From an uncultured Bacteroides sp. (GTDB taxonomy: Bacteria; Bacteroidota; Bacteroidia; Bacteroidales; Bacteroidaceae): DNA of 64,000 nt. Under the pieces are notes generated by a model, which was not told the DNA's origin, did not search any database, and was given only the letters and a program-made list of their open reading frames with translations. Shown here in pieces: positions 1 to 20,552 of the stretch (the stretch's first letter is position 1; each line of letters opens with the position of its first letter). The stretch lies in assembly GCF_963666545.1 (NCBI RefSeq), contig NZ_OY762899.1:2790001-2854000 (forward strand). The letters are read 5' to 3'. The position numbers and the translations under genes were made by a program.

Positions 1-1762
1 TCAGTGAATTGCCAACTTTGTGTTTCCACAAGACTTTTCCTGTCAAAGGCTCTAAGGCAAAGATGAGGCCACTTTTTGTGCTTCCAAATACGATCCCGTC
101 TTTCTCTACAGGCATAGAAGGAGCATGCTCGTAGCCAAAACCGACATTTGATACCCATAACTGATGAGGCTTATCTTCTTTTGTTGCAAAACAGACGATA
201 CTGTCGTTCATCGTTTTGCTGTATACTCTTTCTTTATCCTCTGATAGGGCAATAGTTTCGCGCACCACTGATTGTTTGGTTCGCCATACCGTTTCGCCTG
301 TTTCCAAATCGATGGCTGTCATAGCACGTTCAGGGTCTGTTATAAACACCTTTCCGTATGCTGCAACCGGCCATACTGCTGCCGGTGAGAAATGCATCCG
401 CGTTAGTCCGCCTGTCCATTTCCATAGTTCCTTTCCATCTGTCTTATCGAGTGCGTACAACGTATTGTCCCATGCACCAAAAATAACTTTATCCCCTGCG
501 ATGAGAGGACGAGTTTCTATGTATCCTTTCACTTGATTATATGCCCAACGGACTTTTCCTGTTTTCACCTCTATTGCACGAAAAGTATGATCACTGGCAC
601 CGATGTAAGCTACTCCGTTTTCAATCCTTACAGCTCCAAGTACAGGTTCGTTCGCATTTACTGTCCATATCACTTTACCACTTTTTGCGTTCAAGCCATA
701 GATATTCTTGTCTGCGGAGCCGAAAACAACGATCCCTTTCTCTACGGCCGGAGTTCCTACGATACGGTTACCTGATTGAAAAGCCCAGAGCTTCTTTCCG
801 CTTTTCAGTTCGTAGCAAGTTAGCGCACCCTTGTCGTCTCCTACATATACTTTTTTGTCTGCATAAGCCGGCGAACTATAAATGCCGACTCCGGAACGAA
901 CAATCCATGATTCTTTTACTTGAGAGAAGGTTTGGTTGACCGAGAAATCAGGATATTTATTGCTTGCACCTTTTTCATCATAATACTTCTTCTGGAGTGA
1001 CAGGGAAGCCCATTTTTTCATCTCGGAACCAATCTTGTGTTCATAGACAATAATGGAATCAGGAGTTACATCGTATACGGAATATCCTCCGACGCTGTCT
1101 TTAGCTCTAAGATTGGAACGATTCAATATACCCGGTATGCCGTCATAGGAAAGGAATCGATTGCTGTGATAATGTCCTCCAAGAAAAGCACGTATATTGT
1201 ATGGTCGCACGGCATCCGTTACATCAAACCAATTGTCCACGTCGCCATCTTGTAGCGGATAATGTGTTGCCAGAATTACGGGTTTCTCTTTTCCTGCTTT
1301 GCTTAGTTCCTCTTTCAGCCACGTTATATCTTGTGGAGACACATGCCCGTCTGCCATTCGCATGAGAGGTCCTGAATTAAACCCTAGAAACAAAAAGCCA
1401 TTGTGCTCAAATTCGAATCGCTCAGCACCAAAGATATGACTGAATGCAGTGACGCCTGATTCGCTCCACTTCGTTTCGTGATTTCCCAAGATAATATAAT
1501 ATTTCACTTTTAATCCGTTAAGGATATCATGCGCTATTTGCAGACTATTTCGATCACCTTCCTCTGTGATGTCTCCGGTAACCAAAACAAAATCGATATT
1601 CGGAGTTGCATTAATCTGCTTGACAGAGTTTTGCAAATCTTCTATGGATGTTGGGTTTTTAGAGATGTGGATATCCGTGACCAGCGCAAACCGAAAAGGT
1701 TGTGCAACCAGTGTAGGCAAAGCCACAAAGAGAAGAGCTAATATGATCAATCCTTTTTTCAT
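1..1762 (-). CDS. Exported metallophosphoesterase fused to PQQ-type beta-propeller (3' end cut off by window)
   Basis: The reading frame opens at ATG 1762 and runs off the left edge, giving about 587 visible residues. Residues 1-20 form a signal peptide ending VAQ. A calcineurin-like phosphoesterase domain follows, with metal-site motifs DIH at 30-32, GD at 63-64, GNHE at 93-96, a later THYP, and GGHYH. From about residue 260 the sequence turns into PQQ-like propeller blades (repeats such as GKKLWAFQSG, GKVIWTV, GKVRWAY, GKELWKW). It starts 8 bp after the amidase stop codon, so it is probably co-transcribed with the peptidoglycan-related genes. By family knowledge it hydrolyses phosphoesters outside the cytoplasm; its substrate is unknown. 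A lipid-linked or phosphorylated wall sugar is possible but is inference. Confidence 0.85.
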   Translation of the reverse strand, partial: MKKGLIILALLFVALPTLVAQPFRFALVTDIHISKNPTSIEDLQNSVKQINATPNIDFVLVTGDITEEGDRNSLQIAHDILNGLKVKYYIILGNHETKWSESGVTAFSHIFGAERFEFEHNGFLFLGFNSGPLMRMADGHVSPQDITWLKEELSKAGKEKPVILATHYPLQDGDVDNWFDVTDAVRPYNIRAFLGGHYHSNRFLSYDGIPGILNRSNLRAKDSVGGYSVYDVTPDSIIVYEHKIGSEMKKWASLSLQKKYYDEKGASNKYPDFSVNQTFSQVKESWIVRSGVGIYSSPAYADKKVYVGDDKGALTCYELKSGKKLWAFQSGNRIVGTPAVEKGIVVFGSADKNIYGLNAKSGKVIWTVNANEPVLGAVRIENGVAYIGASDHTFRAIEVKTGKVRWAYNQVKGYIETRPLIAGDKVIFGAWDNTLYALDKTDGKELWKWTGGLTRMHFSPAAVWPVAAYGKVFITDPERAMTAIDLETGETVWRTKQSVVRETIALSEDKERVYSKTMNDSIVCFATKEDKPHQLWVSNVGFGYEHAPSMPVEKDGIVFGSTKSGLIFALEPLTGKVLWKHKVGNSL

Positions 1763-1770
1763 AATTCAGT

Positions 1771-4700
1771 CTACTTATTTTTGCGTTGTTTTTCAAAGAA
1801 AGAAAGTATTGATTGCATCAATTGCTCTCTCTCACCACTTGTACGTATGGACTCGAAGGGAAATCCCAGTACACATGTTTTGTAATCTCCCTCATAAGCT
1901 ATTCCAGCACTAAGGTTGTTCTCCGAATATCGAAGTACGGTATATGCTCCTTCAGCCGAAGGCTCTAATGCATCGGGTGACTCTACTACATAAGAGTCGG
2001 AGTTCAATTCATTGTAATAACTGTATTTACCGTTGATCATGTCAAATGGTGAGGCTACACTTTTTACTTGTCCCGTTGTTGCAGCCTGACCTACACGCCA
2101 CTTGTATTTAAGAATATCAGTGGCAAAAGCTTTATCTTCTTTGTTTGCTTGAGCATTATCCCATAAATCAGAGGCAACATAGGCTCCTGAAACAAAGATA
2201 TTTCCTCCCGCTTTGGAATAAGCCGAAATCGCTTTTTGCATTTCCGGTGTGAAAGTCTTAAACTCTATTGGGATGACTCCTCCTCGTCCCATCTTCGTTT
2301 GTTTTTCTTTGCCTAAAATCAAATCGACAGATGGATAATCGTTCATGGAGGCATGTTTGTTCTCTACTGCTTCATCGTTGCAAGAAACGAAAGAGTAACC
2401 GGCTTTGAGGATTGCTGCACCATGCACAGCCGGGTAATCAAATGTATTTCCTGCAATAACCATCGTTTCGTAATTTCCATAGCTATCACCAAAACCGGAT
2501 GCATCATCGTCCATCCAAGGTATGACGCGGCGGAACTCTTTCATACTACCAATGTAACTGATGTCCTCTTTATAAGGAACTCCGTGATCTAATGGATCGA
2601 GGAATCCGGCAATACTATCTGCGGGAGCAACAAAGTCGGCCGGAGCACTGATCCGGTCGAATCCGTTGATAACCAAGACTGTACCCTTAGAGTTGAATGC
2701 TCTGCCGGTAGAAAGAATCTCCGAAGGGAAACTTTCTCCACCTTTGTTTAAGGCAGTCACTTTGTAACTGCAAACCACTCCGGCCGGAATCACAGTGCGA
2801 TAGGAATTCTGCTGAACGACTACTCCGTTATCAAAGTCTCCATCCCCTATGCGGGTATATACAATGTACTTTTCAGCTTTAGCTGTTGCCTCCAGCGGAT
2901 CATTGACCGGTTGCCAAGTCAATTCCATCTCATTTTCTCCAATGAAACGGATACTCATATTGTCCACCGGCAATGGCTGCACCACATATTCTTGTTTGTA
3001 TTGCGAACAGAGAAATTGGAGCATTCCTTTGTATATGGAGCGGCTTACAGTGAAGCGGAAACGAGGATCAATGCCATAACGCATATCTGCAAAATTCTGA
3101 TGAGACAGTAGTTCTAACAACATGGTAGGAACTTTAGGCACTCGAGCTTCAAAGTACGATTGATTCCACATACCACGGCGTGTCCATTTAGGCTCGTACA
3201 AAGCGCGAATGTCATTTACAATGTTGGTCTGTATCAAATCGGTTAGATCTCTTGATGCATAGCGGGATGTTCCATTGGCAAATGTTCCGTCATAACCTGC
3301 TGTTTGGAAAATACCTAATGTGCCGATAATGGAATCGTTCATCGTAGTTCCTGCATCCGAATGAAAGGCAAAAGCCATATCAACAGGAATTTTTAATCCT
3401 TTATCCGTAGGACAGGCAGATGATCCTCCTGCTAAATAGTTCACCCATAATCCACGTGATTTATAGTCATCCGTATAGTCATTTTTTCCTTGACTTTCGG
3501 AATAGACACTATCAGGCATGCCCGCCCACTGGAGCCAATAACGAGCACCTTCGGTAAATCTTGGATAACCACTTGTTTCGTATGGATAGTCTACTTTAGG
3601 CAACTGTTTGGTTGTTATCGGAGTTGTGATGTCAGAACTTCGAGTGTTTTCAGTAGCTATACCACCATCGGCTATTCTACGTGCTATGTTGCCATAACCT
3701 CCTCCAATCTTAATCGCATCCGCTGTGACCATTCGTCCCGACTTATCCGATTTGTTGCTTAATACAACTTTGCAAGCATCATTTCTTCCTGCATCGAAAC
3801 TAAAATGTCCCAGATAAATCCATGTGCCACCGCCCATCGTTTGGTTGACTTTGAATTGAGATACGCCACCTTTGTGATAAACAGTGTAGAGAGCATCTTC
3901 CGTACTATTCTCTACTGTTTTGTAAGACACATAAACGGCATACTTACCCGCTTTCGGAATAGAAGGAATCCACTCTGCCAAGTTCTCTTTCCCTTTCTTT
4001 ATTGTCTCCGTTAAGCGGTAAGTACCCTCTTTGAAAGGATTCTCAAAATTAATGTATTGATCACGTAAATGAGCAAATCCGGTCTCTTTACCAGTGCTCC
4101 ATCTCTTATCAGCATCCTTTTCGGTGTAGACAGATGCATTGCGGCAACCGTCATTATCAATGATAACTTCCACCGCTTGAGTGTCTCTCTCTCGAGGAAG
4201 CAATACGTTTGCTCCTGCATTCTCAAGCATTGGAACAAGGTAGGGGAGGACAAAACTCTGAGTATAGAGATCTTCTACCGTTTGAAAGATGCGGGCTCGC
4301 TGCCATTCCCAACGTGTTAGTTTAGGCTCATAATAAAATCCGTGACTTTGCCACAAAGCAATGTGTCTACTCTGCAAACCTTTTGTGGGGGCGTAAGGCA
4401 CAGAGAGTTTGCTGATTAATGGCTTATCAGACTTATTGGTAAAAGTACCTGCTTTTTTATCCTTCTTGGTCCGCAAAGCCATTGGAATAAACTCTTCAAT
4501 CGCTTTCTTGTCAGTGCAGATTTTTAGTTTGTATTTTGCTAATTCCTGGGGGAGGAGAGCTTGTACTTCACGATAAATAGTCTGCACATTGTCTTCACGA
4601 AATGGGATGTAAGAGCAATTAATGTTGGCAAAGAGAATGAGTTCATTCTTCTCAATGGCAACAGAATCAATGTTTATCCTGGCAACAGAAATCTCCTTAC

Positions 4701-4827
4701 GAGCTGTAACGGTAAGAAAGTTGCCGATTTTAGCCCGCAGTTCCGTAGAGACTTCTTGTGCAATCATGGTTTGTGGGAGCAAACCGAAAGCCAACAGAGA
4801 TAAAAATGACGCACGTTTTAAATTCAT
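1771..4827 (-). CDS. Exported N-acetylmuramoyl-L-alanine amidase-like protein, split by a golvesin domain
   Basis: A 1018-residue protein with a signal peptide at 1-24 (ending IAQ). Amidase_3-like zinc ligands can be picked out as His162 (in SHG), Glu185 (in TVEDLY), His489 (in FHSDAG) and a catalytic-type Glu572 (in LLELLSHQN). Between the second and third ligand lies an insert at about 220-380 resembling golvesin/xanthan-lyase beta domains (KAGKYAVYVSY, GTWIYLGHFSF, VTADAIKIGGG). A fibronectin III-like segment follows at about 617-710, then a C-terminal alpha/beta domain like class I glutamine amidotransferases (about 715-1010). Relatives are often annotated only as xanthan lyase. The intact metal set and the neighbouring NamZ favour cleavage of stem peptide from MurNAc. 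It starts 38 bp after the symporter stop. Domain limits are by eye. Confidence 0.78.
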   Translation of the reverse strand: MNLKRASFLSLLAFGLLPQTMIAQEVSTELRAKIGNFLTVTARKEISVARINIDSVAIEKNELILFANINCSYIPFREDNVQTIYREVQALLPQELAKYKLKICTDKKAIEEFIPMALRTKKDKKAGTFTNKSDKPLISKLSVPYAPTKGLQSRHIALWQSHGFYYEPKLTRWEWQRARIFQTVEDLYTQSFVLPYLVPMLENAGANVLLPRERDTQAVEVIIDNDGCRNASVYTEKDADKRWSTGKETGFAHLRDQYINFENPFKEGTYRLTETIKKGKENLAEWIPSIPKAGKYAVYVSYKTVENSTEDALYTVYHKGGVSQFKVNQTMGGGTWIYLGHFSFDAGRNDACKVVLSNKSDKSGRMVTADAIKIGGGYGNIARRIADGGIATENTRSSDITTPITTKQLPKVDYPYETSGYPRFTEGARYWLQWAGMPDSVYSESQGKNDYTDDYKSRGLWVNYLAGGSSACPTDKGLKIPVDMAFAFHSDAGTTMNDSIIGTLGIFQTAGYDGTFANGTSRYASRDLTDLIQTNIVNDIRALYEPKWTRRGMWNQSYFEARVPKVPTMLLELLSHQNFADMRYGIDPRFRFTVSRSIYKGMLQFLCSQYKQEYVVQPLPVDNMSIRFIGENEMELTWQPVNDPLEATAKAEKYIVYTRIGDGDFDNGVVVQQNSYRTVIPAGVVCSYKVTALNKGGESFPSEILSTGRAFNSKGTVLVINGFDRISAPADFVAPADSIAGFLDPLDHGVPYKEDISYIGSMKEFRRVIPWMDDDASGFGDSYGNYETMVIAGNTFDYPAVHGAAILKAGYSFVSCNDEAVENKHASMNDYPSVDLILGKEKQTKMGRGGVIPIEFKTFTPEMQKAISAYSKAGGNIFVSGAYVASDLWDNAQANKEDKAFATDILKYKWRVGQAATTGQVKSVASPFDMINGKYSYYNELNSDSYVVESPDALEPSAEGAYTVLRYSENNLSAGIAYEGDYKTCVLGFPFESIRTSGEREQLMQSILSFFEKQRKNK

Positions 4828-4865: not shown

Positions 4866-6317
4866 TTATTTTTTGTCTTTTACAATCATTAGGCTGAGGC
4901 CAATGAAAGTAAAGAATGCATTAAATATCAATAGCTCGTAGCTAAACGCATATCCGTTGAACCATGCTTCCGAATTCTTTTGCAAGATGAAGCATAAAAT
5001 AGGCGAGATGATAGCCACTAACGGAATATATTTATCTCGAACTTGTTTTTTCGTGAAAATGCCGAATGCGAATAGTCCTAGTATGGGACCGTAAGTATAA
5101 CTAGCCAAAATATATACTGCATCTATGACGCTGGTATTGTTCAACATATTGAAAACAAGGATGACTAAACCCATTACTATGGCCATACCTACGTGCACGC
5201 GCTTGCGTATTTTAACGATCTCGCCTTCTGCCTTTCCCTTTGTCCCTAGTATATCTACTGTAAAAGAGGTGGTCAGAGCAGTCAGTGCAGAACCGGCGGC
5301 CGAGTATGCTGAAGAGATTAATCCGATAATGAACAGTATACCGACAATAATGGGAAAGTAATTGCCCGTGGCAATCATCGGAAACAGTTCATCACTCTTA
5401 GCCGGATTGGTAATTCCGTTTTGAGCTGTATATGTGTATAGCAATACGCCAAGCATAAGAAAAAGTAAAATTACAAAGAACTGTGATATACCACTAGTGA
5501 TCATGTTTTTTTGAGAATCTTTGAAGTTTTTGCAGCTTAGGTTTCGTTGCATCATATCCTGATCCAATCCGGTCATGGCAATCATCGTAAAGATCCCTGC
5601 CAGAAACTGTTTGAAGAAATAACGTTTATCGTTTATATCATCAAAGAAAAATAGTTTAGAAAGATCACTCTTAGTAATGCTAGCCACCATTCCGCTAAAG
5701 CTTAGTTTCAAGTCGGATGATATATAATAGATGCATAGTACTACCGATACTACTAAACAAAATGTTTTTAAAGAGTCTGTCCATATCAACGATTTCACTC
5801 CGCCACGAAAAGTATATAGCCATACTAGGGCAACAGTAGCAATCACATTCAGGATGAAAGGTAATTGTAGAGGGTCGAATACCAATAACTGCAAAGTGAG
5901 GCATACTAAGAATAAGCGGACTGCTGCTCCCAGCATTTTGGAGATAAAGAAAAACCAGGCTCCTGTTTTATAAGAAGATGTTCCGAATCTGTTCTCCAAG
6001 TACTCGTAGATGGAAACAAGATTCATTTTATAGAATAATGGTATTAATACGAAAGCAATAATGAACTGCCCTGCTACAAAACCGAGCACCATCTGTAGGT
6101 ATGCAAAATTGCTGGTTGCTACCATTCCCGGTACTGAAACAAACGTAACACCCGATATGCTCGAACCAATCATAGCAAAGGCTACTACATACCAAGATGA
6201 CTTCCGGTTTCCAACAAAGAACCCTTGATTGTCTGCTTTTCTACCCGCTATATAGGATATGGAAAATAAAATCAAAAAATAAGCTGCTATCGTAACTAAA
6301 ACTAGAACAGGGCTCAT
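4866..6317 (-). CDS. Sodium:solute symporter (SSS/SLC5 family)
   Basis: A 483-residue inner-membrane protein of about 13 hydrophobic helices, with the SSS signature region near the N terminus (SYIAGRKADNQGFFVGNRKSSWYV split over TM1-2) and GSSISGVTFVSVPG. The family imports sugars, sialic acid, amino acids or vitamins with sodium. It lies 76 bp after namZ and 38 bp before the amidase, so it most likely brings in the product these enzymes release, probably MurNAc or a MurNAc-containing disaccharide. The MurNAc transporter of Tannerella forsythia sits in a comparable setting next to a BadF-type kinase. The substrate is inference; the family call is secure. Confidence 0.9.
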   Translation of the reverse strand: MSPVLVLVTIAAYFLILFSISYIAGRKADNQGFFVGNRKSSWYVVAFAMIGSSISGVTFVSVPGMVATSNFAYLQMVLGFVAGQFIIAFVLIPLFYKMNLVSIYEYLENRFGTSSYKTGAWFFFISKMLGAAVRLFLVCLTLQLLVFDPLQLPFILNVIATVALVWLYTFRGGVKSLIWTDSLKTFCLVVSVVLCIYYISSDLKLSFSGMVASITKSDLSKLFFFDDINDKRYFFKQFLAGIFTMIAMTGLDQDMMQRNLSCKNFKDSQKNMITSGISQFFVILLFLMLGVLLYTYTAQNGITNPAKSDELFPMIATGNYFPIIVGILFIIGLISSAYSAAGSALTALTTSFTVDILGTKGKAEGEIVKIRKRVHVGMAIVMGLVILVFNMLNNTSVIDAVYILASYTYGPILGLFAFGIFTKKQVRDKYIPLVAIISPILCFILQKNSEAWFNGYAFSYELLIFNAFFTFIGLSLMIVKDKK

Positions 6318-6393: not shown

Positions 6394-7569
6394 TCATTCT
6401 GCATATAGCAGGTATGGCCTACGCTGTGCCTTAAATTTTTCTACATCGCCTTTCCACATTGCCTTGATCTCATTTGCATCTTTCCCTTCTTCAATCATCT
6501 TTCGTACATAATCCGTACCGACCAGCGATTCGAAGAACGGGCGAAAGAAATGGTCACCCATGTTAAGGTTTCTGTAGGCATCAATAATGTAGCTCAAATC
6601 TACACCTTTTCCTCCTATTTCTTTATCAGAAAGTCCGCTTAAATTTACACCATGGCATAACTTTCCGAGTTGAGGTGGGTTTTTTGCACCCGAAATACTT
6701 TTAGGGATGAAACTGTAGCTGCATCCTGTCATGTTGGGATGTCCATAGATCTGGAATGGGAGAGAAGTTCCTCTACCTAGACTAACAGGAGTGGCTTCAA
6801 AAAAGCAAGTAGACGGATAAAGGTAAACTGCTTTCATGTTAGGTAAGTTAGGTGATGGAGGAATAGGAAGCTTATACAATGTTTGGTGTGTATAGTTTTT
6901 GCATTTGACTACTGTGACGTCACAGACTCTTGATGCGGGGAGCCATTTCTCTCCATTTACCATTAGGGCGAGTTCGCCTAAAGTCATGCCATGCACAATG
7001 GGAATAGGGAGCCATCCCACCCCTGATTTATATTTCATATCAAGTATCGGTCCGTCTACATAGTGGCCGTTAGGATTGGGACGATCTAAAATTAGCATCT
7101 TACGATTATATTCCGCGCAAGCATCCATTAGTTTCACCATAGATATATAATAGGTATAGAATCGCAAGCCTACATCTTGTATATCTACGATTAGTATATC
7201 AAATTTGCGCATAGATTCTTCGCTGGGCTTTCCAGCCTTTCCGTCATATAATGAAAGTATGGGTACCCCCGTCTTTGTATCAACAGAGCTTGAAACATGT
7301 TCTCCTGCATCTGCATTTCCACGGAACCCATGTTCCGGAGAGAAAATAGCAACTACATTGAACTTGTTTTCTAATAATACATCCAAAGTATGCTTATTGC
7401 CTATCATACCGGTATGGTTAGAAAACACCGCAATGCGCTTATTCTTCAAAATAGGGAAGTATTCTTTTGTCAGTTCAGCACCGACAATGACAGAATTCCC
7501 TTCCTTCGGTTGTGCATTCATGCAAATTGAACCGCACAATAAAATAGCTATAAGTAGAATCGTTTTCAT
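6394..7569 (-). CDS. namZ: Exo-beta-N-acetylmuramidase NamZ (DUF1343, GH171)
   Basis: A 391-residue protein with a signal peptide at 1-19 (ending NAQ). It matches the DUF1343/NamZ family over its whole length: SNHTG at 50-54, FSPEHGFRG around 76-84 with the conserved Glu79, DIQDVGLRFYTY at 129-140, and a later DRPNPNG. The family founder in Bacillus subtilis cleaves non-reducing-end MurNAc from peptidoglycan fragments. Export places it in the periplasm or at the surface. It is first in the transcription unit namZ-symporter-amidase-phosphoesterase, with a consensus -7 element 33-40 bp upstream of its ATG. Family certainty is high; exact substrate and linkage here are inferred from the family. 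Confidence 0.92.
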   Translation of the reverse strand: MKTILLIAILLCGSICMNAQPKEGNSVIVGAELTKEYFPILKNKRIAVFSNHTGMIGNKHTLDVLLENKFNVVAIFSPEHGFRGNADAGEHVSSSVDTKTGVPILSLYDGKAGKPSEESMRKFDILIVDIQDVGLRFYTYYISMVKLMDACAEYNRKMLILDRPNPNGHYVDGPILDMKYKSGVGWLPIPIVHGMTLGELALMVNGEKWLPASRVCDVTVVKCKNYTHQTLYKLPIPPSPNLPNMKAVYLYPSTCFFEATPVSLGRGTSLPFQIYGHPNMTGCSYSFIPKSISGAKNPPQLGKLCHGVNLSGLSDKEIGGKGVDLSYIIDAYRNLNMGDHFFRPFFESLVGTDYVRKMIEEGKDANEIKAMWKGDVEKFKAQRRPYLLYAE

Positions 7570-7847: not shown

Positions 7848-8687
7848 CTAAAGAGCCGTAAATTGCCTCACAGATGCTGCTGGTTTTGCAGATCTCATTC
7901 CACCAATTGTGTGATGGTAACGTCGGCCAATATACTCATTCTGGTAACCTGTATAGCTTACATATTTGCCATTTGAATTCCATAGTTGTAGATCATTACC
8001 AATTACTCCGTTTGCATCAACTACTTTTATTTTGTAGTCTATCCTGCAATATCCCGAAGAATTGTATACACTTTTAACGATTTTGATGGCTTGCCATCCT
8101 GTTGTTTCTCCAAATGACACAGGGTTGCCTAAATTAAGGACTTCTTTGGTCCTAGGATCTACATATTGATACTGTAGTTTTAAACTACATGGTACGCCTT
8201 CTGTTTCATATAAAAAATTGTAGAACTTTACATAAGCAGTTGAGTCTGTGTTTTCAGTAGTATTAGCACTATAAGGATATTCATTATCAAAAACAGTGGG
8301 TACTTTATTGAAGTCGTAAACAAAAACATTTTGCTTCCCTTTGCTTAAGGTTACGTTTTGATCATATACTAGCTCTAAACCAGTGCCTTTATATAATTTA
8401 ACATTTACTTCTCCCGGATCCACAGAGTAAAATCGACCAACAACAGAGCCATATGGAACGGCATTGTATGTTGAGAGCGGAGCAGTACTGTTTGCATATA
8501 ATTGGTCGTTTATTTTGATTTGATAGATATTATTGGCAGAGGTTGCTGTTACCGGTACGAAGTAGTGCAGCTGAAACTCAGCCACATCTGACGAGATGGC
8601 AGTCGTGTTGTATTCAACTTCGTTTTTATCGCATGAGATTGCAGCGATCATTACCAGAACCAAACTGATGTATTTAAATATTTTCAT
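7848..8687 (-). CDS. DUF4397-like surface lipoprotein, third gene of the second SusCD operon
   Basis: I place the start at ATG 8687, since the 9 extra upstream codons would precede the signal peptide. This gives 279 residues. Residues 1-18 form a lipoprotein signal with lipobox AISC (Cys19). The middle (about 35-130) resembles DUF4397 beta-sandwich repeats (FVPVTATSANNIYQIKIND, YGSVVGRFYSVDPGEVNV). It follows SusD by 40 bp and ends at a strong terminator. By position it is probably a surface ligand-binding protein that helps the SusCD pair capture substrate, as in other PULs. The ligand is not evident from sequence. Confidence 0.7.
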   Translation of the reverse strand: MKIFKYISLVLVMIAAISCDKNEVEYNTTAISSDVAEFQLHYFVPVTATSANNIYQIKINDQLYANSTAPLSTYNAVPYGSVVGRFYSVDPGEVNVKLYKGTGLELVYDQNVTLSKGKQNVFVYDFNKVPTVFDNEYPYSANTTENTDSTAYVKFYNFLYETEGVPCSLKLQYQYVDPRTKEVLNLGNPVSFGETTGWQAIKIVKSVYNSSGYCRIDYKIKVVDANGVIGNDLQLWNSNGKYVSYTGYQNEYIGRRYHHTIGGMRSAKPAASVRQFTAL

Positions 8688-8727
8688 ATTGTTCACTTTT
8701 CTTTGTTTATACATTTAGTCCTATATA

Positions 8728-10632: not shown

Positions 10633-13600
10633 TTATCTAAATGTGAGGCTTAAGCCAAATGAAATACCACGAGGATTAGGTATCGACCAAACATCATATC
10701 CTTCACCTCCCGTGCCACCTGCTGCTGCAGAGACTGTATTGCCTACGGCATCAATGCCGGAGTAATTCGTCCAGGTAAATAAATCGTTGCCTGCTGCATA
10801 GATATTTGCGTTTGAAATAAGACTCTTTTTTAGCCATTTTGCAGGCATTGTATAGGATACACGAAGCTCTTGCAGTCGCAGATAATTGACGTTTTTCTCT
10901 AACCAATCCTCATCTGCTCCTGTATAAATTGAGGCTCCGTATGTGTCATAGGATACCGTTATGTTGTTTTTAGTTGGACTAGTTGTGTTCTCATTGCCAT
11001 CTTTCAAAACGCCATTAAAAACCACTGGGCCTCGTTCGCGTAACTCAACAGATTCCCAACTGGTGCCTTTTTCCATCATCGAACGTTTTGTACCGTTCAC
11101 TACGGTTGCTTTGTAGCGTCCTGAAAACATAGCTGACAGACGCATGCCTTTGTAAGCTAAACTGGTAGTAAGCCCAAAGCGCAATTTTGGTTCACGGTCT
11201 CCAATAACACTCCATGTGCTACTTACTAAAGGTATACCGGTGGTTGGGTCAATTAATATTTCTCCTGCATCATTGCGTTGATATGCTTTACCGGTCAGAG
11301 TTGTAACTGAATGACCAACCATAATGCCGTTGCGGATGCCACCTGAATTCCATGTGCTAGAGTTGTAGTACTCGCTTACATTATCAGGTAGATAAACAAC
11401 TTTTGATTTTGTGCTTGAAACATTTACTCCAACATTCCAACGAAATCCATTTGATTTGCGAATAATGTCTGCGTCAACATGTGCTTCCCATCCCTTAGTA
11501 TCGAACGTGCCGACATTCATGTTGTTTAATACAAACCCTGTTGCGTAACTAAGCCGAAATCCTTTTACTATCTGATCGGCGCAGTGTGTCCAAAAGTAAG
11601 TGAAATCTGTATTTATCCTGTCATCCCAAAAGCGTCCTTCAAAACCTACTTCGTGTGAAGTTGTCATTTCCGGCTTTAGTTTTTCGTTGGAGCCTGTATA
11701 GCCATATTGATACCCTCCTCCAGTTAAACCTGTAGCTTGTAGCTGCGGTTTAATTTCATTTGGTCCTGCATCTTTACCAACTTGTGCAATGGAACCGCGG
11801 AGTTTTAGGAAGTTTATATATTTATTATTTTTTAAAAAGGCGAGTTCTGTTGGTATGAATGCAACTTCCATAGCCGGATAGAAAAACGACTTATTATTTG
11901 GGGGAAGTGTTGAGGACCAGTCATTTCGAGCTCGAAGAGTTAGGAAAGCCATGTTGTTATAGCCTAATTCCATTTGTCCTGAAATGGCTTGTACTCTGCG
12001 CTTGGTTGTTGTTGTGTTTGAGACTATGGTTGAAGCATCGCAGTTATTTATTGATTGAAAATTAACAACAGCAAATTTAGTTCCGTATGTTGCTAAGCGA
12101 GTGACTCCATTTTCTATCTGGTGATATCCGGCTTGGAGCGCAAGCGTTATCTTTTTGTTGAAAAAATCGTTGCTATATCCTGCTATAATATTTAATGTAG
12201 GATCTGAAAAATTTGACTTGGCAAGGTTATAAACTCCAGAGCCAGCATTGTTGTTGTAGTAATAGGGATGTTTTGACGTTTCAAATGTTTGCATTCCAAC
12301 ATCCCAACCTACTTGTGCGCGAAGAAAGGCATTTTTAAAGGGAGTTATACTGACGGCTGCATTTGTTATAAAACGATCGGATTCATCGTAATATTTGTTT
12401 TTATTTATATCAAATAGTGGATTTAAAAGATCGGTGTCCGTGTAGTAATTGGGCATGCGCATGTGTGAACCGTCGTCCGCTAAGTAATTAGACATGTTAT
12501 CTACGCTTGGCCATAACATTGATTTGTACAAGGGGCCATCTGTACCACGAAGTGCTTTGTCGTTTGTTGTAGATGTATATTGCATGGATGCTTCGAACTT
12601 CATCCAGTCAGTAATTTTTGCTTGACCTGATAGTGTGAAGTTCATCCGTGAATAGTCAGTCCCTTTCACTACACCTGTCTGGTCGAGAAAAGAAGCTGCC
12701 GCTCTTAGGGTTGCTACCTCAGAACCGGCTTCCACAGATATATTATGCTTTGAGGTAAAGCCTGTTTGCATAACTGCGTCTGTGTTGTCGTATAGTGTGG
12801 TGCCTTTCTCGTATAGACCACCGTAGCGGCTGGTATAGTAATAGTTTGTTGTTCCATAGGCCCCTTGCGCATATTTCGTTTGCATTTCCGGGTATCCATA
12901 GGCGTTATCCCAGCGGAACATATTGCTGTATGTCACCTTGCCTTTACCTACAGCTCCTTTTTTTGTGGTTATGATGATAGCCCCGTTTGAGGCATCTGAG
13001 CCATAAAGTGCAGCAGCGGCTGCACCTTTCAATACTGTCATTGATTCAATATCTTCAGGATTGAAATCGTTGCCGCGAGAGGCGAAATCTAAGTTTCTAC
13101 TTGAGTACGATGCGTCAACATCAGCAAATGTCGCGGGGTTGAACGTGGAATTATTCATTGGGATACCATCGACCACATAGAGTGGTTGATTGTTTCCTGA
13201 AATAGAAGTAATGCTTCTTAGAACAACAGTTGTTGACGATCCGGGAGCACCTCCTGTGGATGTTACTGTCATTCCTGAAACGCGTCCCTGAAGTGCTGAA
13301 ATGAAATTGTCGCGTCCAGATTCTATGATATCACTCGCTTTTACATTTTGTACAGATGAACCAATAGTGCGAGCAACACGTTTCATTCCAAATTCGGCAG
13401 TAACTACAACCTCGTCCAAGGAACGTGAGTCTTCTTCTAAAGTAATGTTAATTGTTGAACTATTGCCTACAGTAATTATTTTAGTCGTATATCCAATATA
13501 AGACACTTTTAATTGGTCTTTATCAGCCGCATTGATGTTAAAGTGTCCGTCAATATCGGTAATTGTGCCTATGCTTGTTCCTTTCACCATAACGTTTGCT

Positions 13601-13773
13601 CCGATAATCGATTCTCCTTTAGGGTCGACTATCTTGCCACTTCTTTTTTTTGTGGTTTGTTGGGCTGAAGATGTATCAGGTGGAGTGTTTGTTTTTGCTG
13701 CTAGGGGCAATGGGGACGCAAAAAGCATCAATATCGCTAGTAGCACTGTTGATGTAGCTAATTTTCTTCTCAT
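10633..13773 (-). CDS. SusC/RagA-family TonB-dependent outer-membrane transporter (pair 2)
   Basis: A 1046-residue protein with a signal peptide (1-26), an N-terminal carboxypeptidase-D-like regulatory domain at about 45-115 (GKIVDPKGESIIGANVMVKG), the SusC-type TonB-box segment DEVVVTAEFG near 120, a plug with VDGIPMNN and GAAAAALYGSDASNGAI, and a long beta-barrel ending in PRGISFGLSLTFR with a terminal aromatic/Arg. It imports bulky ligands across the outer membrane with TonB energy, together with the following SusD. A 439-bp leader/intergenic region lies upstream, suggesting its own promoter apart from the first pair. Confidence 0.94.
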   Translation of the reverse strand: MRRKLATSTVLLAILMLFASPLPLAAKTNTPPDTSSAQQTTKKRSGKIVDPKGESIIGANVMVKGTSIGTITDIDGHFNINAADKDQLKVSYIGYTTKIITVGNSSTINITLEEDSRSLDEVVVTAEFGMKRVARTIGSSVQNVKASDIIESGRDNFISALQGRVSGMTVTSTGGAPGSSTTVVLRSITSISGNNQPLYVVDGIPMNNSTFNPATFADVDASYSSRNLDFASRGNDFNPEDIESMTVLKGAAAAALYGSDASNGAIIITTKKGAVGKGKVTYSNMFRWDNAYGYPEMQTKYAQGAYGTTNYYYTSRYGGLYEKGTTLYDNTDAVMQTGFTSKHNISVEAGSEVATLRAAASFLDQTGVVKGTDYSRMNFTLSGQAKITDWMKFEASMQYTSTTNDKALRGTDGPLYKSMLWPSVDNMSNYLADDGSHMRMPNYYTDTDLLNPLFDINKNKYYDESDRFITNAAVSITPFKNAFLRAQVGWDVGMQTFETSKHPYYYNNNAGSGVYNLAKSNFSDPTLNIIAGYSNDFFNKKITLALQAGYHQIENGVTRLATYGTKFAVVNFQSINNCDASTIVSNTTTTKRRVQAISGQMELGYNNMAFLTLRARNDWSSTLPPNNKSFFYPAMEVAFIPTELAFLKNNKYINFLKLRGSIAQVGKDAGPNEIKPQLQATGLTGGGYQYGYTGSNEKLKPEMTTSHEVGFEGRFWDDRINTDFTYFWTHCADQIVKGFRLSYATGFVLNNMNVGTFDTKGWEAHVDADIIRKSNGFRWNVGVNVSSTKSKVVYLPDNVSEYYNSSTWNSGGIRNGIMVGHSVTTLTGKAYQRNDAGEILIDPTTGIPLVSSTWSVIGDREPKLRFGLTTSLAYKGMRLSAMFSGRYKATVVNGTKRSMMEKGTSWESVELRERGPVVFNGVLKDGNENTTSPTKNNITVSYDTYGASIYTGADEDWLEKNVNYLRLQELRVSYTMPAKWLKKSLISNANIYAAGNDLFTWTNYSGIDAVGNTVSAAAGGTGGEGYDVWSIPNPRGISFGLSLTFR

Positions 13774-14212: not shown

Positions 14213-15903
14213 TTATTCCCAACCGGAATTATTAGGCGCTAAATTTGGATTTAGACTGATTTGATCTGAAGAAAGTGGATACAAATAATATTTTTTATTA
14301 TAGGTACGGACTTTACCTTTGCTGCCATCAATATAATTTCCTATTTTCGTTGCATTGTAGCTTGGGTCGTTAATTACATTTGCCCCTTTAAGAATATTAG
14401 GATTTGTTGTAGAATCTAATTTGTCCAGTTGATGCCAACGAATTAAATCCCAGTAACGATTCCAATTATCAAACATTAGCTCACAACGACGTTCGCGGCG
14501 AATTTCCCAGATTAAATCACTTACGCTATGATCATTTTTAGGATCACTAAAGCCTACAGCTCGGCTTAAGTGTGGCAAACCAGCACGATCTTTTAGTAAG
14601 TTGATAGTGTTGTCCAGATCGCTCTGAGTAGTAATGCCCAATTCTGCACAAGCTTCTGCATAGTTCAAATAAATAACGGCTAACCAAAATAGTGGAGCGT
14701 GCGTATAGTTACTACTAGTTTGATTTCTATATATAGTTGGGATGCTTTTGTTATCATACTTAGCTACACCATAACCAGTAGATGAGGTCATTCCCATACC
14801 ATCATTAAAACGAGTAAAAGCTCTACCTTGATAAAATACTACCGTGTCAATTGTTTGCGCCAATCGCTTGTCGCGAATGGATAGCATATCATTCAAAGAC
14901 AAATGCCCGTATTTTAACGGAGCAGCGTCGCTTTTATCGAAGCTCGTCAATGATAATGGCTTACCATCAGTGAACAAATACGCTTCAAAAGCATTTTTTG
15001 ACATACCACTGATTTGTGTAGAAGAACAAGTATAATCAATTAGTGAATGTGTAAGTATACTCTGCTTGTATGCCTTGTAGAAGATCATTTCTGTATTTGT
15101 GCTTAAATCTATAGAGTTATAATTACCTTGGTATGAAGCATTTAGTTTATAGCTCTTAGACATAATTGCCGAACAGGCTTCTTTGCATGCTGTTAAGAAT
15201 TTAGTTGCGCCTTGTGTGTCTGGTGCATCTTGCCCATCCTCACTTTTACGATATTTACGAAAAGTTCCCTCGTATAAACAAATCTCAGCTTTCATAGCAT
15301 TAGCCAATGAACGACTCCAAGTTGTTTTAGAAGTTACGTCATTGATATTTGTTGCGGCAAAGTTTAAATCCTCTAGAACTTTATCCATTACATCATCTCT
15401 TTTATCTCGACTGCCGTAAAGAATCCCTTCGTCAGTAATATCTAGTGATTTTTCTATCCATTGTACGTTACCAAACATACGTACCAGATGGTAATATTGC
15501 CATGCGCGCATGAGATGTGCAACGCCCAACCAATGATTTCTCACATCGTCACTCATGGTTGAAATACCAGCCACTTTCTCTAGCATTATATTTGCACGAC
15601 GAACTTCAATCCATGCATCTCTCCAAGTAGTATTACTCGCTGGAATATTTAGATAAGGCCAATCAGAGAAACTTTGGCCAGCCTGATCGTCAGATAGTGT
15701 TTTATAATAGAAATCACCAGCTCCACCTGCGTTCCCATATCCAAGGAATTGCTCATAAAAGTTATTAGCATAGCTAGAAACAGTATTTTCATTTACCCAG
15801 AAATTAGTGTTAGTAAAAGTGTCCAGAGTTCTTTATCTAGAATACTGTCGCAACTAATAAACGTAGCAAGCAACAATAGATATATTGAGTTTATTTTTTT
15901 CAT
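14213..15903 (-). pseudogene. SusD/RagB lipoprotein gene of pair 1, broken by a one-base deletion
   Basis: The lipoprotein start lies at ATG 15903: a signal with lipobox FISC (Cys18) and then DSILDKE. That frame hits a stop 17 codons later. The neighbouring frame carries on as LDTFTNTNFWVNENTV and through the whole SusD domain to 14213. The minus-strand text GATAAAGAACTCTGGAC lacks one C relative to the expected GAA CCT CTG (SusD proteins often read DKEPLDT there); the shift is at about 15826-15829. Restoring one base gives 1692 nt, a normal 563-residue SusD. As written, only a product starting at an internal Met (15586) without signal could be made. It may be a true mutation or a sequencing/assembly error. 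Confidence 0.85.
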
Positions 15904-15935: not shown

Positions 15936-18900
15936 TTAAAAAGTAACCTGCAACCCAAATGATATTGTACGGTACATTGGATCTACGCGACCCCAAGTGC
16001 CATTTCCATAGTCATCGGTATTGGTGCTGCTGAGAACCGTAGCTTCACTGGTATTAACTTCGGGATCCACGGGTGCATTACTTTTATTTATTAGTTCACA
16101 AACATTATTTGCACTAAAATAAACACGAACTTTATCCATATAAGCTTTACGTGTCAATGACTTAGGTATCGTATAGCCAATTGTTAGATTTTTGAAACGT
16201 AAATAAGCCATGTTGACTAAATATTTACTTTGAGGATAAAAATTATGGTTTCCTCTTTCTATGACAGAAATATTACCTTGTCCAGCATTCCCTGGCCATA
16301 GACGTGGAAAATCAGCATTGGGATCAGGGTTCTCTTTTGTCCAATAACTTGTTTGATTGGCGTAAATAGCATCGGCACCACGCATCATTGGCATAACAAA
16401 TGCTGATTGAGTCCACACGTCTCTTTTCCCAATACCTTGAAAGAACAGATCAACATCTATACCCTTCCATTCACCTCCTAAGCGGAAGCTATACTGATAT
16501 CGTGGAGTCGTGTTGCCAATAACTTTTAAGTCACCATGATCATCTGCGGTACCTTTACCACCGTCAATTACATTATCGTCATTCAAATTTTTGAATTTGA
16601 TATCACCAGGTCCATATACAAAACCGTTTTGTTGTAATCCAGTCTGCTTTGCAATGCCTTCTTTATAGCTTCCATCAGTATTGAAATCATCTGCGGTAAA
16701 GTATCGGTCGGTCTCAAATCCCCAGATATCGCCATATACTTTGCCACTATAATTTGAATTCAGCAATTTAGTATCATCATCCCATTTAGTAATAACGGTT
16801 TTAAAGTCACCAATTGAGGCATTTGCATAAACAGTTACTTTGTTAAATAGGTGATGCCAATCAACGGACAATTCCCAACCTCTAGTTCTCAATGTACCGG
16901 CATTGATTTTTGGCGGATCAGTACCAAGTGTTTGAGGCATGGTTTGTCCAGGTGCCAACATATCTTTCGTAGTACGTTGATACCAGTCCAAAGATATATT
17001 TAGGTCGTTATTAATAAATGTCAAATCAGTTCCAAGGTCTAAAGTTTGGATACGCTCCCACTTCAATTTAGGAGAGACCAGTGTTGGCATATCATAGCTA
17101 ACGACTTTACTTCCTCCGTCTAGCCAATGAACATTGGAATCAAGTTTTTTGCTTAATGTAGAAAGAAACATATAGTCACCAATAGCTTGATTACCTATTT
17201 CACCGTATGACGCACGTAATTTAGCATTATTGACAACTTTTTTTAGAGGTTCAAAATACTTTTCTTCACTTATGCGATATCCTACTGAACCTGATGGGAA
17301 AAATGCCCAACGGTCACTTGACGGAAATTTGGAAGAGCCATCATAGCGCCCATTCAATTCCAATAACCATACACCATTGTAATCATAGTTAATGCGGCCA
17401 AACCAACCAGCAGTTCCCCATTCCCTATGCGAGCCTCCTACCGTTTGATCACCTATTTCTAAATTGAATTCAGGCATATTACCATCTAATAGATTGGCAC
17501 GCTGCCCCCAATGTGATTTATATTCTCCTTCTTCCGCATTAGCACCTATCATAAAATTGAAGTGATTCTTTTTTGCCAGATTTAACTCATAGTTGGCATA
17601 AACATTTAAAGCATAAGATTGGTCATGGATAGATTCTTGCTTAACATAGGTGGAGGTATTGCCAATAAGCGCTGTGGGTGTCGTAATCTTGCCTCCCCAG
17701 GAATTCCACGAAGTGACAGGAAGCCCCGCTTTTTCTTCATCCGAGTTGCGTATGCTTAATGTGTAGTCAGCATTCAGCGTTAATCCTTTAATTATAGTGG
17801 CTTTCAAAAAGCCTCCTATACGAGTATAAGAGTCATTTGTGTTGTCGTCACCAGCTTGTTTGAGATAGGCAATATCATTACGCATATCTGTCCCTTGGTA
17901 TGTGCCATATGGACCAAAGAAACTGCCCCATCGCCACAAATATGTATATGTATTCCGTTGTGTATTGGGGGTTGTATAATCTTTGTCACTGTAACTAAAA
18001 CGGCCTCCCACTTGCAGCCAGTTGGTGATGTCTGATGTGACATTCATAGTTGCATTATACTTATTCAGTTTATCTGGGTTAAAATTTAGAACACCTTCCT
18101 CATGATTATAACCCAATGACATAAAATAAGAAGTTTTCCCGCTTGTTCCTTGCACAGAGATATTGTGGCTTTGTCCTGGTTTCCAATTACGGAACATAAT
18201 ACCTACTACATCCCAGTCTGCATAATATAGAGCGCTACCATCCGCAGACAAGTCAAAATCATCACCTGGAACCATTTCACGATAGCCTGTTTTACCTCCA
18301 TGTCTTTGTTTCCAACCCTCTGCTTTGCTTATAAAACTATCATCCATAACCATACCGAATAATTCATTTGATAGTCCGGCTCGAAGGTTTGCTGACCTAA
18401 GAGCTTTTGCCTGGGAAGCAACATCTGGATAGTCAGGAAGTATCGTTGGAGTATCCCAAGAGAAATTATTGGTATAGTTTATAGTAACTCTATCAGTCTT
18501 TTTTGCTGATTTCGTAGTAATTAGAATAACACCGAAAGCTGCACGTGTTCCATAAATAGAAGTTGAAGCTGCATCTTTTAATACTGATATGTTTTGTATA
18601 TCCTGTGTATTAAGATATGAAATGTCATCCATTGGGACGCCATCTACAACGATCAAAGGGTTGCTTTTGGCGCCATCGCTCAATGTGCCTGTACCACGAA
18701 TAGTAATAGTCGGTTTAGAGTTAAGTTTGCCATTGGTATTCATTATTGACAGGCCCGGAACAACACCTTGCAATGCCTTTGTTATGTCCGATTGAGGACG
18801 GGCTTCCAACGTTTTCCCTACATCTACGGTAGATACAGCACCTGTGAGGTTAGCCTTCTTCTGTACGCCATAGCCAACTACTACTACTTCGTCTAAAAGC

Positions 18901-19271
18901 TCGGTGTCTTCTTTTAGAATCACTTGCATATTCTTGGAGGCTTTTATCTCTTGAGATTTATAACCTACATAAGAGACAATTAGAGTCGCTCCGGGCTTTG
19001 CATTTAATGAGAATTTACCATCTATATCAGAAATAGTACCGTTAGTAGTTCCTTTTTCTAGGACACTAGCTCCAATGATTGCTTCTCCTTTAGAATCAAC
19101 AATTAGCCCTTGGATGGCTTGCGATTGCTGTTGTTCATTTGCTGAGTAGTTGCTGTTGGGAATACTTTTGTTGGCTATTGCTTCACCGCTGCCTATAAAT
19201 AGTGCAGTGATAGTTAGTGCCGTGAGGAGTTTACCGTGAGTAATACCTCGTTTTTTTCGATCTTCATTCAT
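15936..19271 (-). CDS. SusC/RagA-family TonB-dependent outer-membrane transporter (pair 1)
   Basis: An 1111-residue protein with an N-terminal signal (about 1-34), a carboxypeptidase-D-like domain at about 52-125 (GLIVDSKGEAIIGASVLEKG), the classic SusC TonB-box segment DEVVVVGYG, a plug with VDGVPMDD and DAASTSIYGTRAAFGVI, and a barrel ending in TISFGLQVTF with terminal Phe. It stands 32 bp before the start of the frameshifted SusD. It is the longer, standard SusC type, whereas pair 2 belongs to a different branch, so the two pairs may take up different fragments. It is intact. Confidence 0.94.
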   Translation of the reverse strand: MNEDRKKRGITHGKLLTALTITALFIGSGEAIANKSIPNSNYSANEQQQSQAIQGLIVDSKGEAIIGASVLEKGTTNGTISDIDGKFSLNAKPGATLIVSYVGYKSQEIKASKNMQVILKEDTELLDEVVVVGYGVQKKANLTGAVSTVDVGKTLEARPQSDITKALQGVVPGLSIMNTNGKLNSKPTITIRGTGTLSDGAKSNPLIVVDGVPMDDISYLNTQDIQNISVLKDAASTSIYGTRAAFGVILITTKSAKKTDRVTINYTNNFSWDTPTILPDYPDVASQAKALRSANLRAGLSNELFGMVMDDSFISKAEGWKQRHGGKTGYREMVPGDDFDLSADGSALYYADWDVVGIMFRNWKPGQSHNISVQGTSGKTSYFMSLGYNHEEGVLNFNPDKLNKYNATMNVTSDITNWLQVGGRFSYSDKDYTTPNTQRNTYTYLWRWGSFFGPYGTYQGTDMRNDIAYLKQAGDDNTNDSYTRIGGFLKATIIKGLTLNADYTLSIRNSDEEKAGLPVTSWNSWGGKITTPTALIGNTSTYVKQESIHDQSYALNVYANYELNLAKKNHFNFMIGANAEEGEYKSHWGQRANLLDGNMPEFNLEIGDQTVGGSHREWGTAGWFGRINYDYNGVWLLELNGRYDGSSKFPSSDRWAFFPSGSVGYRISEEKYFEPLKKVVNNAKLRASYGEIGNQAIGDYMFLSTLSKKLDSNVHWLDGGSKVVSYDMPTLVSPKLKWERIQTLDLGTDLTFINNDLNISLDWYQRTTKDMLAPGQTMPQTLGTDPPKINAGTLRTRGWELSVDWHHLFNKVTVYANASIGDFKTVITKWDDDTKLLNSNYSGKVYGDIWGFETDRYFTADDFNTDGSYKEGIAKQTGLQQNGFVYGPGDIKFKNLNDDNVIDGGKGTADDHGDLKVIGNTTPRYQYSFRLGGEWKGIDVDLFFQGIGKRDVWTQSAFVMPMMRGADAIYANQTSYWTKENPDPNADFPRLWPGNAGQGNISVIERGNHNFYPQSKYLVNMAYLRFKNLTIGYTIPKSLTRKAYMDKVRVYFSANNVCELINKSNAPVDPEVNTSEATVLSSTNTDDYGNGTWGRVDPMYRTISFGLQVTF

Positions 19272-19703
19272 ATGAGACTGATGATTTTAATTGTTAGATA
19301 ATTCGTTTTTTTAGAGTAATGGGGATCTCTGAAATACTTGGATAAAACTTTATCCCTCGGTAATCTTGTTTCTTCATCATAGGCTATAAGCATTATATTA
19401 TCTCTTGTTTATTGATAGCATTTACAGGGTTACTCAGTCTCTGCTATAGCAGAATATTGACCTGCTGAAATATTGTTTTGGTTAGGTTGTTTTAAGAGAT
19501 CAATCTGTGTAATCAACAAAGGAACAAAACTTTAAAAGGCTTTGTCTTAGCAAATATATAAATAGTTTTTGCATTAAGAACTATTTTTTGCATTATTTTG
19601 TATTTATAGGTATATTTTTGGCTATTGAGGGGCGAATGGAATGTGATTATTAATATATGTATTTATGTTGTAGGAAGAAACAATTTTGTGATTTCTACAA
19701 TAT
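19272..19703. other. 432-bp gap between the kinase and SusC pair 1
   Basis: No coding sequence is supported here. On the minus strand TATATTTG at 19552-19559 fits the -7 consensus and would give a leader of about 275 nt before SusC. A near-palindrome GGATAAAACTTTATCC lies at 19340-19355, about 70 bp upstream of the SusC start, and could be an operator. Confidence 0.45.
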
Positions 19704-20552
19704 TTAGGCCTCTTCAATATTCATAGAGTGAAATTCTATCAGCCCGGACATTGGAGTCTCTTCAATAACTTCGAGTTTGACATCAAACTCGTTGGCTATA
19801 TCGCACAATACTTCGGAATAGCTATATGCTACTGAACCAACAAAACGAATAGGGTAATTTTTGTAATCATATTGGCACACACTGCGTGTAAAGAAGCTGC
19901 GTAAATTTTCAGTAAGCATGCTATAGACATAATCGTTGTCTAAATAGTCTGCCAAAAAATAGGAGATGGTAGCTAAAAAACGGTTAGGAAAGGGGCGATT
20001 ATAAACAGATTCCATCACGTCATTGGCGTTGATGCGGAATTTTTCATAAAAATCGTTCGTAATATCTTTAGGTGCTAATCCTTTAAGGGCATCTGATAAA
20101 AATATTTTGCCAAATACGGCACCACTACCTTCATCGCCTAGGATATAACCTGCAGCTTTTACGTTTTTTGCGATAATTTTTCCGTCATAAAAGCATGAAT
20201 TTGATCCTGTACCTAGAATGCAGGCAATTCCCGCTTCGTCTTTGAATAAACCACGAGCAGCTGCAAGTAGATCGCTTTCCACTTGGATAGGGGTTTTAAA
20301 TTGGGCTACTAATGATGCGCCTAAAATATTTTTTTTCTCATTTGAGGTACATCCAGCACCATAGAAGTAAACTTGTTCTATCTTTTTTCTAAAGAAAGAT
20401 TCAGGTAAGCCAAGTCTGACGCTTCTACTAATCTCTCTCCGAGTTTGAAAAAAAGGATTCAACCCTTCTGTAAAGACACGTTGTATGAGATGATTATCTT
20501 CAATTAATGCCCATTCTGTCCTCGTAGAACCGCTTTCTGCAATAAGTTTCAT
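19704..20552 (-). CDS. BadF/BadG-family amino-sugar kinase, MurK-like
   Basis: A 282-residue protein of the ASKHA fold with the BadF-type phosphate-1 motif ESGSTRTEW at 6-14, AGCTSNE, a LGTGSNSCFYDG adenosine/sugar loop, and GDEGSGA. Members phosphorylate N-acetylglucosamine and/or N-acetylmuramic acid; Clostridium and Tannerella MurK belong to this group. It has no signal peptide, so it acts in the cytoplasm. It is the first gene of the minus-strand block, with TATATTTG (20578-20585 on the minus strand) as a possible -7 element 26 bp upstream. Together with NamZ it points to MurNAc salvage. MurQ, which would open MurNAc-6-phosphate, is not in the window. GlcNAc kinase is the main alternative. 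Confidence 0.8.
   Translation of the reverse strand: MKLIAESGSTRTEWALIEDNHLIQRVFTEGLNPFFQTRREISRSVRLGLPESFFRKKIEQVYFYGAGCTSNEKKNILGASLVAQFKTPIQVESDLLAAARGLFKDEAGIACILGTGSNSCFYDGKIIAKNVKAAGYILGDEGSGAVFGKIFLSDALKGLAPKDITNDFYEKFRINANDVMESVYNRPFPNRFLATISYFLADYLDNDYVYSMLTENLRSFFTRSVCQYDYKNYPIRFVGSVAYSYSEVLCDIANEFDVKLEVIEETPMSGLIEFHSMNIEEA

Follow-up and report, generated by a model that had tools for sequence, protein, structure and literature searches.

The window analysed here is a stretch of 64,000 nucleotides, positions 2,790,001–2,854,000 of a single-contig 4.45 Mb Bacteroides genome (G000) whose source organism is close to Bacteroides ihuae. From position 20552 down to base 1 it carries ten genes, all on the minus strand, which we consider likely to form the outer-membrane uptake arm of a complete locus for the salvage of N-acetylmuramic acid (MurNAc) and muropeptides. 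First stands a K1058-type kinase of the BadF-like MurNAc family (19704..20552), followed by two units of outer-membrane proteins: the TonB-dependent transporter SusC1 (15936..19271) with its surface lipoprotein SusD1 (14213..15903), and SusC2 (10633..13773) with SusD2 (8728..10611) and a lipoprotein, LP (7848..8714), which stands behind SusD2 in the loci examined. These are followed by NamZ-A of the exo-beta-N-acetylmuramidase family (6394..7569; 96% identical to that of B. ihuae), an SSF sodium:solute symporter that is a candidate MurNAc importer (4866..6317), a candidate periplasmic Amidase_3-like enzyme with an inserted Golvesin_C domain (1771..4827), and a metallophosphatase with a PQQ/BamB-like propeller (1..1762), which runs past the window edge and has a full length of 617 residues. 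NamZ-A exceeds the Pfam cut-offs for both of its domains (NamZ_N 252 bits, NamZ_C 104 bits) and scores 731 bits to PDB 4jja. The symporter matches PF00474 and the phosphoesterase-propeller protein PF00149 and PF13360; these three family assignments and the single direction of the genes agree with a preliminary description of this DNA.

The window edge is artificial and cuts the locus in half. The preliminary description let the locus end at base 1; in the DNA to the left of the window in the same genome (L003), however, the salvage genes continue on the same strand for 13.5 kb. Ten further genes with gaps of at most 110 bp follow in the order GT2, DUF4922, SpoIID/LytB, an AmpG-like permease of the major facilitator superfamily, a second NamZ (NamZ-B), a GlcD-like flavoprotein, a NagX-like protein in the place of MurT, MurK, MurQ and a PBP4B-like protein. 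The etherase MurQ, which the preliminary description suggested looking for in the genome, thus lies in the same gene run (TIGR00274, 312 bits; cut-off 302). The core kinase (L003 8590–9420) is of the MurK type, with 391 bits to Tannerella forsythia MurK (8oqw) versus 280 to K1058, and LytB and the core NamZ exceed their model cut-offs. The AmpG model scores 180 bits against a cut-off of 350, and the GlcD, NagX and PBP4B models also stay under their NCBIfam cut-offs, so these four names rest on similarity and position, by which the MurT orthologue is assigned as well. The order of AmpG, NamZ, LytB and MurT matches the T. forsythia locus, where the core relatives (L228, L229) are 57–80% identical and identically ordered. 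With MurQ, MurK, a MurT orthologue, an AmpG-like permease, LytB and a second NamZ in one run, the gene content strongly supports peptidoglycan and MurNAc salvage as the theme of the locus, as first proposed from the window. The protein in the place of MurT (L003 9417–10562) resembles the NagX/HGSNAT acetyltransferase family; excerpts of the T. forsythia literature, the form in which all papers are cited here, describe MurT as a sodium symporter (PMC5790795).

Two further genes look catabolic. A 949-residue FAD/Fe-S GlcD-like (D-lactate-dehydrogenase-like) flavoprotein (L003 10567–13416) is embedded in the MurNAc operon, and its gene lies within 300 bp of MurT, MurK, MurQ or NamZ-B in 12 of the 13 loci that hold it; some reduced loci keep NamZ-A, SSF, the GlcD-like gene and MurK all together. 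Because the reaction of MurQ yields D-lactate (PMC5790795), and given this placement, the GlcD-like protein is likely to oxidise the D-lactate that MurQ releases. At 54 of 80 named NamZ-A loci, some of them reduced and from other families, NamZ-A is immediately followed by the SSF gene (the 80 are the best of at least 584 confirmed, each fetched with a flank of at most 10 kb per side). This suggests that SSF imports what NamZ-A releases.

Both SusC/SusD pairs are present, adjacent and above family cut-offs, as the preliminary description had it (SusC1 847 bits with TIGR04056; SusC2 668 bits with the SusC model; SusD2 is a SusD-like_2 protein), but the first SusD is frame-broken. Near 15.82 kb, shortly after the lipoprotein signal, the lipoprotein start at about 15903 falls out of frame with the rest, to which the SusD match (14213–15586) belongs; intact SusD1 orthologues of 563 and 565 residues occur in two other loci (L209 and L210). 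Real decay, phase variation and sequencing error cannot be told apart as the cause. LP contains no known domain: the DUF4397 model, to which it had been assigned, gives zero matches at E≤5 in LP and its two relatives. Intergenic spaces of 432 bp before SusC1, 439 bp before SusC2 and 278 bp before NamZ-A suggest that K1058, SusC1-SusD1, SusC2-SusD2-LP and the core are separate transcription units.

Judged by gene neighbourhoods, the association of SusCD with salvage genes is specific, though optional. We scored seven SusC candidates per genome in 99 evenly sampled genomes of the genus, with counts taken among the matches listed. The SusC1 matches split at a gap in score, with 43 places reaching at least 779 bits and all others at most 643; the 770-bit line was set after seeing this gap, and split matches, such as that of G195, are uncounted. 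In 28 of the 43 places, a K1058/MurK or NamZ gene is found no more than 20 kb from the SusC1 orthologue, while the contigs of the other 15 hold no such gene, at least one of these contigs exceeding 145 kb. Next-tier SusCs (600–645 bits) are linked to salvage genes in none of 39 places, and on this difference we reject a chance neighbourhood. K1058 is found in 31 of 35 genomes with SusC1 versus 13 of 64 without it (Fisher p = 3e-11, with G195 added by hand to the SusC1 set; kinship between genomes is ignored here and in the linkage counts). In three of those 13 genomes (G203, G239, G176), SusC2-SusD2-LP stands beside K1058 instead. This second unit occurs at 14 places in 13 of the 99 genomes: six are beside K1058, NamZ-A or both, and five are undecidable at the ends of contigs or stretches. 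The best SusC1 match within a genome is the locus-linked copy in nine of nine genomes (G000 and eight further), all chosen for a known pair at the locus; in three of the nine it is split into two pieces whose sum exceeds the next match. The best match in G002 and G091 heads a separate K1058/core cluster, and the second best stands at NamZ-A. A midpoint-rooted tree of 68 SusC sequences groups 43 as the SusC1 type, and 41 of the 42 other than that of the window have a salvage gene in their stretch, 23 of them within 550 bp; most of the sequences were chosen around NamZ or K1058 genes, so the tree is no independent test of linkage. Such a SusC is present at 14 of the 80 named NamZ-A loci, labelled Bacteroides, Dysgonomonas, Parabacteroides, Massilibacteroides, Prevotella (a metagenome-assembled genome) and Paludibacteraceae.

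Comparison of close relatives indicates that the SusCD unit is an exchangeable cassette. B. ihuae has the order K1058-SusC1-SusD1-NamZ-A with flank proteins 95–98% identical to those of the window, yet its SusC is only 46% and its SusD 32% identical, and DNA homology stops at window position 7649 to resume at 18819, inside SusC1. G203 has K1058-SusC2-SusD2-LP-NamZ-A without SusC1-SusD1 (flank proteins 95–99%), and in G167 and G227 the interval from K1058 to NamZ-A holds SusC1-SusD1 alone (SusC 85% and 79%). The window genome carries both units in tandem. Double SusC1-type pairs, in tandem or flanking K1058, are seen in G157, G184, G209, G225 and others. Since differing units stand between near-identical neighbours (flanks of 87–93% DNA identity), the cassettes have been swapped, and occur as SusC1-SusD1, as SusC2-SusD2-LP, or as both in tandem. 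The inner-membrane muropeptide permease AmpG (L003 14735–16036) also looks swapped between relatives: in the comparison with L072 and L058 it is 61% identical to its B. ihuae counterpart and 59% to that of G239, where neighbouring proteins are 92–97% and 79–89% identical, and 100% identical in G203 within a stretch of 94%.

The same cassettes are found in Tannerella. The genome of the gum-disease bacterium T. forsythia (G656), recognised by a K1058 that is 100% identical to 8oqk over 277 residues, has the order K1058-SusC-SusD-LP-SusC-SusD beside the salvage core, and the first three proteins after K1058 are 71%, 70% and 59% identical to SusC2, SusD2 and LP of the window. Their computed masses are 113.7, 71.2 and 32.6 kDa, and that of the next SusC 117.4 kDa; a vesicle proteome prints equal masses for Tanf_08335 (Omp121, TF1057), Tanf_08330 (TF1056), Tanf_08325 (TF1055) and Tanf_08320 (TF1053) (PMC4604654). 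By mass and position, the T. forsythia orthologues of SusC2, SusD2 and LP thus match Omp121 (TF1057), TF1056 and TF1055. These are prominent vesicle proteins: in the excerpted part of the proteome table, where the score of Tanf_08335 is 2063, only NanO ranks higher among TonB-associated entries (PMC4604654). A cargo assignment was not found in the excerpted papers. TF1056 is a known glycoprotein (PMC4030854). Of the other genomes in this comparison, G591 has SusC1-SusD1 and another pair, and G655 has SusC1-SusD1-SusC2-SusD2-LP, the gene order of the window. The three cassette states are accordingly seen again in a second family. SusD2 (E≤1e-30) is present in two of 31 Tannerella-genus genomes (G655 and G656), in both within the run behind K1058.

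The resemblance to T. forsythia extends to the whole operon. There, a gene annotated as 'xanthan lyase', two glycosyltransferases, lytB, ampG, ybbC and murTKQ form one transcript regulated by GppX (PMC5388701), and K1058 lies directly upstream of the muropeptide cluster (PMC10465942). The window genome has the same series as Tanf_08345–08385, in order: the amidase-like 'xanthan lyase', the two annotated glycosyltransferases (here GT2 and DUF4922), LytB, AmpG, NamZ (ybbC), MurT, MurK and MurQ, with K1058 next door and a SusC-SusD-lipoprotein unit beside it. Unlike T. forsythia, it has two such units of the window types in tandem, and it adds a second NamZ with SSF, the phosphoesterase-propeller gene, the PBP4B-like gene and, relative to the published operon (PMC5388701), the GlcD-like flavoprotein gene. 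The preliminary description knew of no described SusCD-based locus of this kind. We likewise found no paper connecting SusCD proteins with the uptake of MurNAc or muropeptides among the listed matches from the open-licence literature, and the excerpted T. forsythia papers do not link the unit to MurNAc (PMC5388701, PMC7670621, PMC5790795, PMC10465942), but T. forsythia itself has a SusCD unit beside K1058. The clustering of SusCD pairs with an additional lipoprotein, with enzymes that are probably periplasmic and with inner-membrane transporters is shared with Sus-like polysaccharide utilisation loci; in contrast to such loci, the genes scanned include no adjacent regulator or recognisable surface glycanase, the likely target is wall fragments, and cassettes of the window types swap between species. 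A SusCD-type pair serving a single acidic amino sugar has a parallel in the sialic-acid uptake proteins NanO/NanU of T. forsythia (PMC3969230). The present locus differs, however, in that SusD1 reaches only 32 bits with the NanU model (cut-off 425) and no sialic-acid genes are found among those scanned.

The window kinase was previously taken for a BadF/MurK-type enzyme; it is BadF-like, but it is not MurK. Pfam gives zero matches at E≤1, and the closest solved relative is T. forsythia K1058 (PDB 8oqk, 454 bits) with MurK at 241 bits (8oqw). K1058 has Arg132-Ala133 where MurK has Ser-Pro (PMC10465942), and the window kinase has Lys-Ala at this site. Among 34 K1058-type sequences, 28 are at least 55% identical, and the motif could be located in 26 of these, with Lys or Arg in 23. 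MurK-type sequences show Ser/Thr-Pro-Leu in 32 of 41 cases (eight without a motif match, one differing). The conserved basic residue of the K1058 type would fit an acidic, MurNAc-derived ligand. In G176, a second K1058 (69%) accompanies SusC2-SusD2-LP away from the main salvage cluster, much like a portable four-gene unit (L062 9464–16892).

The amidase call is based on an Amidase_3 match of the window protein that stays below the cut-off (16 versus 27 bits, E 0.012). Amidase_3 is weakly matched at E≤1 in 10 of 12 members of the family (best E 4e-4). Residues H162, E185, H489 and E572 are invariant in 12 of 12 sequences, as is E174. We presume that the first four can be read as the His-Glu-His zinc site and catalytic Glu of Amidase_3; the Golvesin_C domain (93 bits) sits between the second and third of these presumed site residues (E185 and H489). 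By similarity and position the protein is the orthologue of T. forsythia Tanf_08345, annotated as xanthan lyase, and is a candidate source of periplasmic amidase activity of the kind inferred, as strong, in that species (PMC7670621). A 978-residue paralogue elsewhere in the genome (G000:C1:763165, L235) is 48% identical, over 960 columns with hhalign, and matches Amidase_3 better, at 25.9 bits, though without reaching the cut-off of 27. Read by eye, the signal peptides of NamZ, the amidase-like protein and the phosphoesterase show no clear lipobox, which makes a periplasmic action, following import by SusCD, probable for all three. The order proposed in the preliminary description, digestion first and import second, is therefore unlikely, and free MurNAc is a less likely cargo at the outer membrane than a muropeptide or a disaccharide.

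Taken together, these observations would fit the following route. Soluble wall fragments from other bacteria or the own cell would be bound at the surface by the SusD-type lipoproteins and LP, and SusC, driven by TonB, would pull them across the outer membrane. Periplasmic removal of the stem peptides would fall to the amidase-like protein, and release of MurNAc to the two NamZ enzymes; SSF, MurT and AmpG may then move MurNAc, disaccharides or muropeptides inward. Phosphorylation of MurNAc by MurK would be followed by cleavage by MurQ, giving GlcNAc-6-phosphate as well as D-lactate, which the GlcD-like flavoprotein would oxidise. K1058 may phosphorylate some sugar derived from the cargo.

A number of results weigh against this role of the locus in MurNAc uptake. 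Because SusD1 is broken, pair 1 may not work in this strain. No SusC of these types lies within the fetched flank at 66 of the 80 named NamZ-A loci, and a sample of the family has a SusC1-type pair at only seven of 40 NamZ-A loci. Twelve K1058 loci outside Bacteroides (at least 50% identity) include two with a SusC1-type pair, one with a partial match and nine with no SusC1- or SusC2-type gene in the stretch, and in the Tannerella comparison G650 and G642 have no SusC or SusD genes of these types beside K1058. K1058 binds with high affinity but turns MurNAc over 200-fold slower than MurK, and its authors now assume that MurNAc is not the natural substrate (PMC10465942). Finally, the AlphaFold model of the amidase-like protein, built with 12 sequences, has a mean predicted local distance difference test score of 48, too poor for a fold search, and hhalign gives zero match between the alignment of this family and a clear Amidase_3 protein of the same genome.

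The alternative that survives best, although we think it unlikely, is peptide import through the SusCD pairs, or through SusC2-SusD2-LP at the minimum; the cargo would then be free stem peptides or oligopeptides in general, in place of fragments bearing glycan. The closest solved relative of SusC2 is BT_2264/OMP121 (305 bits, the next at 197), a system for the import of oligopeptides. Peptides would be set free by the amidase-like protein, and SusC2-SusD2-LP is away from salvage genes in three of its 14 places; the neighbours of the copies away from NamZ-A offer no common clue to the cargo. Against peptide import stand the recurrent placement next to NamZ and to K1058, a sugar kinase, and the lack of any clear peptidase among the locus genes scanned, with the possible exception of the PBP4B-like protein, which would concern wall peptides. 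Less probable again is a hotspot of SusCD exchange beside the salvage locus, filled by importers of some other host or dietary glycan. Rapid exchange between near-identical flanks would be expected of such a site, Bacteroides hold many SusCs, a cassette is missing from most NamZ-A loci and from many K1058 loci, and the SusC2 module of G176 adjoins GH32, GH76 and arabinofuranosidase genes on the other strand. Random filling would, however, bring in many SusC families, yet the next tier is never linked while SusC1 is linked in 28 of 43 places; K1058 follows the presence of SusC1 across genomes, and K1058 keeps the unit as its neighbour in both Tannerella and G176. That the system serves to recover wall material shed by the cell itself, and not to forage on other bacteria, is very improbable: the AmpG-like, LytB and PBP4B-like genes are of the recycling type, but T. 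forsythia grows on foreign wall fragments with a similar arrangement (PMC5388701, PMC7670621), and two NamZ enzymes, SSF and a D-lactate oxidiser look catabolic.

We give about an even chance to the broader proposal that Bacteroidales possess dedicated TonB-driven uptake of peptidoglycan fragments by interchangeable SusCD cassettes recognising different fragments, usually accompanied by K1058, whose substrate would be the imported fragment or its product; Omp121/TF1056/TF1055 would then be the route of an essential growth factor for the MurNAc auxotroph T. forsythia. The salvage core is already known, and the outer-membrane arm with its exchangeable cassettes would be newly linked to MurNAc. 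The excerpted T. forsythia papers do not treat the passage of wall fragments across the outer membrane, and named candidates can now be offered, including prominent outer-membrane proteins of that species. The orphan kinase K1058 becomes tied to a transporter, the periplasmic amidase activity of T. forsythia gains a candidate gene, and exchange of importers between near-identical flanks is demonstrated. If gut Bacteroides do forage on wall fragments in this way, they might also influence the intestinal pool of NOD ligands.

Among the remaining features of the window, no tRNA gene was found, an Rfam search gave zero matches, and the Bacteroides-type promoter pattern is uninformative (five matches against 2.4 expected). 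Upstream of K1058, at 20790..20885 and with no strand assigned, lie palindromes of the AACATCCnnATGTT type that may form an operator. Together with a conserved TATATTTG box, they recur in five Bacteroides genomes (window 20797–20879; L076 3040–3120; L059 6392–6426; L061 920–931; L209 5551–5562), and ACATGGGGATGT is present in eight of 237 loci compared, all from those five genomes and by position upstream of K1058. These elements are candidate sites for a regulator. Left of the window, the GT2 protein, which has an extra N-terminal region, and the GalT/Ap4A-phosphorylase-like DUF4922 protein (L003 17367–19870) accompany LytB-AmpG in many loci.

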